Source of the DNA: Actinostola sp. cb2023
Lineage: Eukaryota; Cnidaria; Anthozoa; Actiniaria; Actinostolidae
Reading direction: 5' to 3'
Length of the DNA: 64,000 bases
Assembly (NCBI GenBank): GCA_033675265.1
Contig: JAUJYZ010001291.1
Span: 83,501-147,500, forward strand
Positions within the stretch are counted from its first letter, which is position 1; each line of letters starts with the position of its first letter. Positions 25,715 to 63,645 of the stretch are shown piece by piece. A program made the position numbers and the translations under genes. A model generated the notes under the pieces. That model searched no databases. It worked only from the letters and a program-made list of their open reading frames with translations, and was not told the DNA's origin.

Positions 25715-25858
25715 ATCAAGAGCCATGCCGACTAAATAACCATGTCCCACAGACGCTTTGTAGACCTTGATGGTTCGGATGCCTTTACGGACCACAGTGC
25801 TTCGAACAGTCCGCGTGGATCTCTAACTTTACTGTCACCACATTCAACGGGATCGCAG
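25715..25858 (+). CDS. Exon 1 (proposed start) of the PDZ-anoctamin gene
   Basis: The exon follows ATATCTCTTTTCAG and ends at a GTAACA donor. The ATG at 25742 opens 39 codons beginning MSHRRFVDLDGSDAFTDHSA and ending in Ser/Pro-rich SPHSTGSQ, in phase 0, which fits exon 2. A short upstream frame (ATGCCGACTAAATAA at 25724) precedes it. There is no domain, so assignment rests on splice signals, phase and coding-like composition. Confidence 0.45.

Positions 25859-63645: not shown

Follow-up and report, generated by a model that had tools for sequence, protein, structure and literature searches.

A predicted sea anemone gene joins three PDZ domains to a probable anoctamin-7 relative

The locus and its predicted product

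The window, by which we mean the whole stretch of 64,000 nt of Actinostola sp. cb2023 that was analyzed (contig JAUJYZ010001291.1), carries a predicted 21-exon gene on its plus strand, at positions 25742-63645 (Table 1). The exons sum to 2121 nt, or 707 codons, with zero stops and consistent phases, and the introns have GT donors (20 of 20) and AG acceptors (20 of 20). The gene continues beyond the right window edge, and the window is without most of the membrane domain; about 38 kb are needed for the first 707 codons, which make up little more than half of the protein. An initial annotation of the window had claimed 707 codons without a stop and in agreeing phases, coding on the plus strand for three PDZ domains and then the anoctamin N-terminal domain through the first transmembrane segment. 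The corrected model bears out the count and the phases, and the exon chain and Pfam confirm the order of the domains.

The exon chain was built from the raw sequence and then corrected by comparison with the proteins of Actinia tenebrosa (P0001) and Nematostella vectensis (P0002). This comparison ruled out a model of 709 codons, in which the exon 19/20 junction was wrong and exon 6 was four codons shorter. The list of relatives, the structure matches, the anoctamin and PDZ trees, and the linker and identity counts reported below are based on the 709-codon model; the difference between the two models leaves the PDZ-anoctamin junction unaffected. With P0001 as the query, tblastn gave a match on every one of the 21 exons, in order and covering residues 1-708, and its further matches were the expected cross-matches between PDZ domains. 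The 707-codon model and P0001 are identical at 552 of 701 residues (78.7%), and the exon junctions are free of gaps in this alignment (20 of 20) and in 19 of 20 cases against P0002. At the level of predicted sequence, the match of the exon chain to P0001 is beyond chance.

Table 1. Exons of the predicted gene and minisatellites adjoining them
Feature	Position	Strand	Phase	Basis or remark
Exon 1: predicted start Met and N-terminal segment	25742..25858	+	0 to 0	matches P0001 residues 1-40
Exon 2: remaining N-terminus, PDZ1 first strand	32263..32362	+	0 to 1	model, tblastn
Exon 3: PDZ1 core, GLGF loop	34446..34585	+	1 to 0	model, Pfam, tblastn
Exon 4: PDZ1 end, alpha-B helix with His	35130..35234	+	0 to 0	model, alignment, tblastn
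Exon 5: linker, PDZ2 first strand	36758..36827	+	0 to 1	model, tblastn
Exon 6: PDZ2 core; alternative acceptor possible 12 nt downstream	37538..37686	+	1 to 0	model, Pfam, tblastn
Exon 7: PDZ2 end, alpha-B1 Ile	38054..38167	+	0 to 0	model, alignment, tblastn
Exon 8: conserved linker, PDZ3 first strand	40890..40968	+	0 to 1	model, tblastn
Exon 9: PDZ3 core	42762..42898	+	1 to 0	model, Pfam, tblastn
Exon 10: PDZ3 end, alpha-B1 Gln, linker towards anoctamin	43860..43994	+	0 to 0	model, alignment, tblastn
54-nt minisatellite: begins inside exon 10, repeats exon 10 donor	43986..44653	+		starts PDZ3-anoctamin intron
Exon 11: first anoctamin exon (NYDEEDMSGERG...), fusion junction	44817..44883	+	0 to 1	model, tblastn
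Exon 12: anoctamin dimerization domain	45254..45363	+		model, Pfam, tblastn
Exon 13: anoctamin dimerization domain	49107..49214	+		model, Pfam, tblastn
Exon 14: anoctamin dimerization domain	49884..50020	+		model, Pfam, tblastn
Exon 15: anoctamin dimerization domain	59057..59114	+		model, Pfam, tblastn
Minisatellite: begins inside exon 15, copies splice donor	59106-59656
Exon 16: anoctamin dimerization domain	60034..60144	+		model, Pfam, tblastn
Exon 17: anoctamin dimerization domain	60756..60830	+		model, Pfam, tblastn
Exon 18: anoctamin, dimerization domain end	61459..61523	+		model, Pfam, tblastn
Exon 19: anoctamin membrane domain start (corrected donor)	62545..62588	+		model, Pfam, tblastn
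Exon 20: first transmembrane segment (corrected acceptor)	62786..62882	+		model, Pfam, tblastn
Exon 21: cysteine-rich loop after first transmembrane segment; gene continues past window	63543..63645	+		model, tblastn

The initial annotation had suggested a Pfam search of the joined translation for PF00595, PF16178 and PF04547, and all three were found. PF00595 (PDZ) matched three stretches of the 707-aa model (195.9 bits, E 1.2e-58); scored singly, PDZ1 reached 67.5, PDZ2 66.7 and PDZ3 77.4 bits, where 23.2 is the cut-off, and the GLGF-type carboxylate-binding loop reads GLGF in all three. PF16178 (Anoct_dimer) covers residues 397-622 (225.1 bits) and PF04547, the anoctamin membrane domain, residues 625-678 (50.6 bits), both above the Pfam cut-off; the latter match spans profile positions 1-41 only, where the window ends, and positions 1-460 are covered in the relatives P0003 and P0009.

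The predicted protein is probably an anoctamin-7 relative, a label that rests on the names of its relatives, the trees being without other subtypes: in two lists of 120 matches each, every non-cnidarian anoctamin with a subtype in its name is an anoctamin-7. Like the ANO7/TMEM16G of animals, the family combines a dimerization with a membrane domain and its members keep five acidic calcium-site residues, but here three PDZ domains precede the anoctamin, and Pfam found no PDZ domain in the listed anoctamins named as non-anthozoan. The acidic residues (E948, E991, E994, E1023 and D1027 in Nematostella numbering, in transmembrane segments 6-8) are invariant in 45 of 45 aligned relatives and were seen in relatives only, this region of the window gene lying outside the window. 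By their motif we take them to be the known anoctamin calcium site; an alignment with Anoctamin-1 was made. Beside this site, the clade of the window gene has Gly, as do six medusozoans checked, and 28 of the 45 relatives have Asn. The function of vertebrate ANO7 is poorly settled.

Several repeats and open frames accompany the gene. In the exon 10 and exon 15 minisatellites, the core TATAACCTG occurs 11 times, CTGGTAAGA 8 times and ACAAGAGTG/GT 8 times. Tandem repeats that run across an exon-intron boundary and copy a splice signal are also a feature of the amphioxus 'mirage' minisatellites (PMC3087553); the present repeats differ in belonging to a cnidarian gene and to the donors of exons 10 and 15. 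An amphioxus origin, which this likeness brought to mind, was discarded since the predicted protein matches that of the sea anemone Actinia tenebrosa best. Intron 14 holds an 8.5-kb array of a 20-bp repeat (50383-58903, about 430 copies), whose long minus-strand open frames are likely due to the repeat alone, and intron 2 holds 40 copies of a 45-bp repeat (32481-34289). In intron 1, plus-strand open frames of BACK and kelch type whose reading frame shifts (27001-28515) are possibly a decayed intronless kelch-like gene; an RVT_1 reverse transcriptase match in the same intron (30287-31207, 98.6 bits) is likely a retroelement, and a PHD-finger match in intron 18 (61905-62207, 26.7 bits) is perhaps a fragment of a mobile element. 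Upstream of the gene, plus-strand open frames at 13358-14401 and 9645-10169 score 100.3 bits for an HlyIII (PAQR-type) domain and 45.9 bits for a COX24_C motif. A tRNA scan found no tRNA genes.

Fused relatives and the number of genes

The combination of PDZ, dimerization and anoctamin domains is not confined to the window. The initial annotation had proposed searching proteomes for the same domain order, and this turned up nine fused proteins among the 120 matches listed: those of Actinia tenebrosa, Nematostella vectensis, Oculina patagonica, Pocillopora damicornis, Montipora foliosa, Porites evermanni (the one marked partial) and Dendronephthya gigantea, as well as P0003 and P0007. A tenth relative among these matches, P0010 (partial), has PDZ and the dimerization domain. 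The seven named species are anthozoans, a class that was looked up for Actinia, Oculina and Dendronephthya, and P0003 and P0007 nest among stony corals in the tree. A search with the PDZ array alone returned 121 proteins, of which 120 were listed, and the anoctamin was present in 9 of those listed, seven from named anthozoans and the other two being P0003 and P0007. The protein search scores about 8,000 candidates that share most words with the query and have bounded lengths, and may thus overlook remote relatives and very long proteins. One further relative from eukprot, P0122 (1865 aa), combines an ion-channel domain (PF00520) with an anoctamin and may be a merged gene model.

Several of the fused proteins are named "anoctamin-7-like" in the databases. 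The literature matches listed (titles and the starts of abstracts, in a search outside which subscription papers and preprints lie) included no paper on a PDZ-anoctamin fusion. The initial annotation had allowed that the architecture might already be well described; it is in the databases, with nine proteins among the matches listed, but a describing paper was not among the literature matches listed, and so far as searched the fusion is apparently undescribed in the literature. A passage of a 2010 survey states, on the basis of domain servers, that Ano2, 5 and 9 have a PDZ domain (PMC2974728).

Could the window hold two adjacent genes, one for PDZ domains that stops after exon 10 and one for an anoctamin that begins in exon 11, which the model joins because their phases happen to agree? 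Exon 11 contains an in-frame methionine (MSGERG), and a PDZ-less relative of 820 aa, P0013, begins exactly at this residue. However, P0013 could come from a cut-off contig, the fused protein occurs in seven named anthozoan records, and in two further records the whole of it is encoded on contigs too short for introns. P0003 has 1191 aa on a contig of 3,932 nt, of which 90.9% is coding, and P0007 has 1179 aa with a longest contig of 4,363 nt, while the window needs 38 kb; these recorded sizes imply that both records come from spliced transcripts or from retrocopies. The PDZ3-anoctamin linker is also conserved in hexacorals, to the same degree as the domains, with 16 of 19 residues identical in Actinia and 18 of 19 in Nematostella; identity drops to 11 of 19 in Oculina and 9 of 19 in the octocoral. 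Neither AATAAA nor ATTAAA was found between exons 10 and 11, one AATAAA lies at 45050 within intron 11, and a pyrimidine-rich acceptor precedes exon 11. Because fused proteins are on record, two of them on short contigs, the exon junctions are free of gaps and matched in order by tblastn, and the PDZ3-anoctamin linker is conserved, the two-gene alternative fails, its remaining probability being very small, and the PDZ and anoctamin exons are one predicted gene. A single locus could still give rise to several products, namely the fused protein, an anoctamin-only form starting at exon 11 and a PDZ-only form, through a splicing or promoter switch. P0013 is without PDZ domains, yet it falls by sequence inside the hexacoral PDZ clade (96/91), and the exon 10 donor is copied in the minisatellite, where other donors could alter the linker; the 54-nt unit corresponds to 18 codons, so that splicing at the second donor would lengthen the protein by 18 residues without a frame shift. 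As P0013 may simply be truncated, we consider such a switch rather unlikely, though well worth keeping in mind.

Conservation is uneven along the protein. The PDZ2-PDZ3 linker is well kept (20 of 22 residues in Actinia and 17 of 22 in Nematostella), and even with Actinia the PDZ1-PDZ2 linker shares only 6 of 15 residues. Compared with Actinia, the PDZ domains are 75-82% and the anoctamin part 78-79% identical; compared with the octocoral protein, the PDZ domains are 37, 44 and 54% identical, below the values for the anoctamin part (64 and 58%).

Origin and history of the PDZ array

Each PDZ domain is encoded by three exons, and the phases 0-1, 1-0 and 0-0 occur three times in a row (exons 2-4, 5-7 and 8-10). 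Such a repetition points to a duplicated cassette whose insertion leaves the reading frame intact, and the PDZ array likely consists of copies of one three-exon cassette. In a tree of 30 PDZ domains from ten family members, these form one clade (99/98) apart from ten PDZ stretches of one MPDZ protein, which is the only outgroup and has long branches (flagged by a program warning), DLG being absent from the tree. The PDZ1 domains group together, the octocoral one included (86/94), and the PDZ3 domains do likewise with weak support; the octocoral PDZ1 and PDZ3 group with their namesakes, and the octocoral PDZ2 groups with the PDZ3 domains on a long branch.

The anoctamin part tells a different story. 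In a tree of 26 rows, the window gene and Actinia group together (96/97) and belong to a hexacoral PDZ clade (100/99) of which the PDZ-less P0013 is also a member. The one octocoral PDZ protein falls outside this clade, next to hexacoral copies that have no PDZ (92/92). This tree leaves out the partial P0008 and P0010, the further Hydra forms P0021 and P0023, P0122, and P0027 and P0074, which had long branches in an earlier tree of 29 rows; six bilaterians stand in for most of those listed, and one sequence represents the octocorals. A single clade of all PDZ proteins plus P0013 was rejected (AU p 0.018, the group having been set after the earlier tree was seen). For groups likewise named after the tree was seen, monophyly of all anthozoan copies was not rejected (p 0.07) and monophyly of both hexacoral copies was (p 0.02). 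The octocoral protein has the derived state at 0 of 9 sites that mark the hexacoral PDZ clade and at 1 of 3 that mark the PDZ-less clade; among 25 sites that distinguish the clades, 5 agree with the PDZ clade, 16 with the PDZ-less clade and 4 with neither. No breakpoint was found in the octocoral protein, which in 19 of 19 sliding windows was on average more identical to the PDZ-less hexacoral clade than to the hexacoral PDZ clade.

Where they overlap with the 709-aa model, the PDZ-less hexacoral copies (P0011 in Actinia and P0012 in Oculina) match it at 68% and 65% identity, but they have a short N-terminus of their own and no PDZ domain, and form a separate clade. In Oculina, the PDZ and PDZ-less copies bear consecutive locus tags, and in Actinia, both records give a contig of 55,985 nt, which suggests that the two anoctamin-7 copies are a tandem pair in these hexacorals. 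The window itself contains no second anoctamin copy, as tblastn with the PDZ-less Actinia protein matched only exons of the fused gene.

From these sequence comparisons, the PDZ array looks single in origin and yet sits on two anoctamin-7 lineages. It was likely joined to anoctamin-7 before the anthozoan subclasses split, and the simplest interpretation places the array already on the anoctamin-7 of an ancestral anthozoan (perhaps cnidarian), with later loss in the hexacoral twin and perhaps in medusozoans. The array could instead have been gained twice, or moved between the tandem copies by exon exchange, as the position of the octocoral protein, the rejected single clade, the lack of shared derived sites and the suggested tandem pair would allow. 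Two independent gains are unlikely because the PDZ domains appear homologous, as do their flanking linkers, loss needs no transfer between copies, and the placement concerns one octocoral sequence only. We therefore regard a double gain or exchange as the less probable course, though one that deserves consideration, and prefer ancestral presence followed by loss.

A predicted channel or scramblase with its own docking domains

Why would an anoctamin carry PDZ domains? The initial annotation had proposed a channel or scramblase with its own scaffold. The fusion is real and conserved, and the functional part of that proposal is in our view the best reading: the predicted 21-exon gene, with three PDZ domains and an anoctamin-7, likely encodes a calcium-regulated channel or a lipid scramblase that would carry its own docking scaffold, to which we assign a probability of roughly 60%. 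The array resembles that of DLG/PSD-95 (MAGUK) in having three PDZ domains in a row, and the closest solved structures to the PDZ domains by sequence are DLG4 chains. It differs in that the PDZ array sits on a membrane protein and that SH3 and guanylate kinase domains are missing, none having been found by Pfam in the window model, P0003 or P0009.

The three grooves may well differ in their ligands. As the initial annotation had noted and the alignment confirms, the alpha-B1 residue in the window is His in PDZ1, Ile in PDZ2 and Gln in PDZ3. Across the window protein and eight relatives (the partial P0008 and P0010 are left out of these counts), PDZ1 has His in 7 of 9, PDZ2 has Ile, Val or Met in 8 of 9 and PDZ3 has Gln in 9 of 9, and the carboxylate loop is GLGF or GYGF in 26 of 27 domains. 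This makes the proposed three different ligands plausible, as the residue differs between the PDZ domains and is mostly kept across the nine proteins. The exceptions are Gln in PDZ1 of Nematostella and Arg in PDZ1 and PDZ2 of the octocoral, and the choice of ligand is therefore not conserved in all members.

Anoctamins work as dimers, so that one unit would present about six cytosolic PDZ grooves. These would hold the C-terminal tails of partner membrane proteins, and PDZ1, with its His at alpha-B1 in most relatives, would favor class I tails with Ser or Thr at position -2. A candidate partner, on published grounds only, is a calcium channel: Nematostella CaV2c ends in ETWC and is bound in vitro by Mint, another PDZ protein (PMC11405698). 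Calcium entering at such a partner channel could act on the conserved calcium site, and chloride flow or lipid scrambling would thereby be confined to the spot of calcium entry.

The grooves might instead hold the C-terminal tail of another copy and so cluster the channel, perhaps at junctions or synapses, as the initial annotation had suggested. This is conceivable for a protein with both three PDZ domains and a cytosolic tail, and two of the tails end in D-x-hydrophobic (DMA and DGV). However, the C termini of eight PDZ-bearing relatives (ELET in four, and LEA, DMA, AIG and DGV; the window gene's own tail lies outside the window) show no conserved PDZ ligand, which counts against self-assembly, and we consider this proposal unsupported and improbable. 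Docking of partner proteins is thus our preferred reading of the grooves. More tentatively, and with a probability that we would place below even, we hypothesize that Anthozoa possess a self-scaffolding calcium-activated channel or scramblase, a membrane-embedded counterpart of PSD-95, that arose when a triplicated PDZ cassette and anoctamin-7 were joined before the octocoral-hexacoral split. Its own grooves would cluster calcium channels and permit chloride flux or lipid exposure only at sites of calcium entry, and the PDZ-less tandem twin would be the free form.

Normally, separate PDZ scaffold proteins position ion channels and scramblases by gripping their tails. Here, the predicted channel protein itself includes the scaffold, an arrangement recorded in sea anemones, stony corals and a single octocoral, and the family presents a case of domain gain and loss among membrane proteins. 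If the proposed mechanism is true, it would offer a natural test of tethering in calcium-activated transport, in which the PDZ-less twin in the same genomes would be a ready control and Nematostella is genetically tractable.
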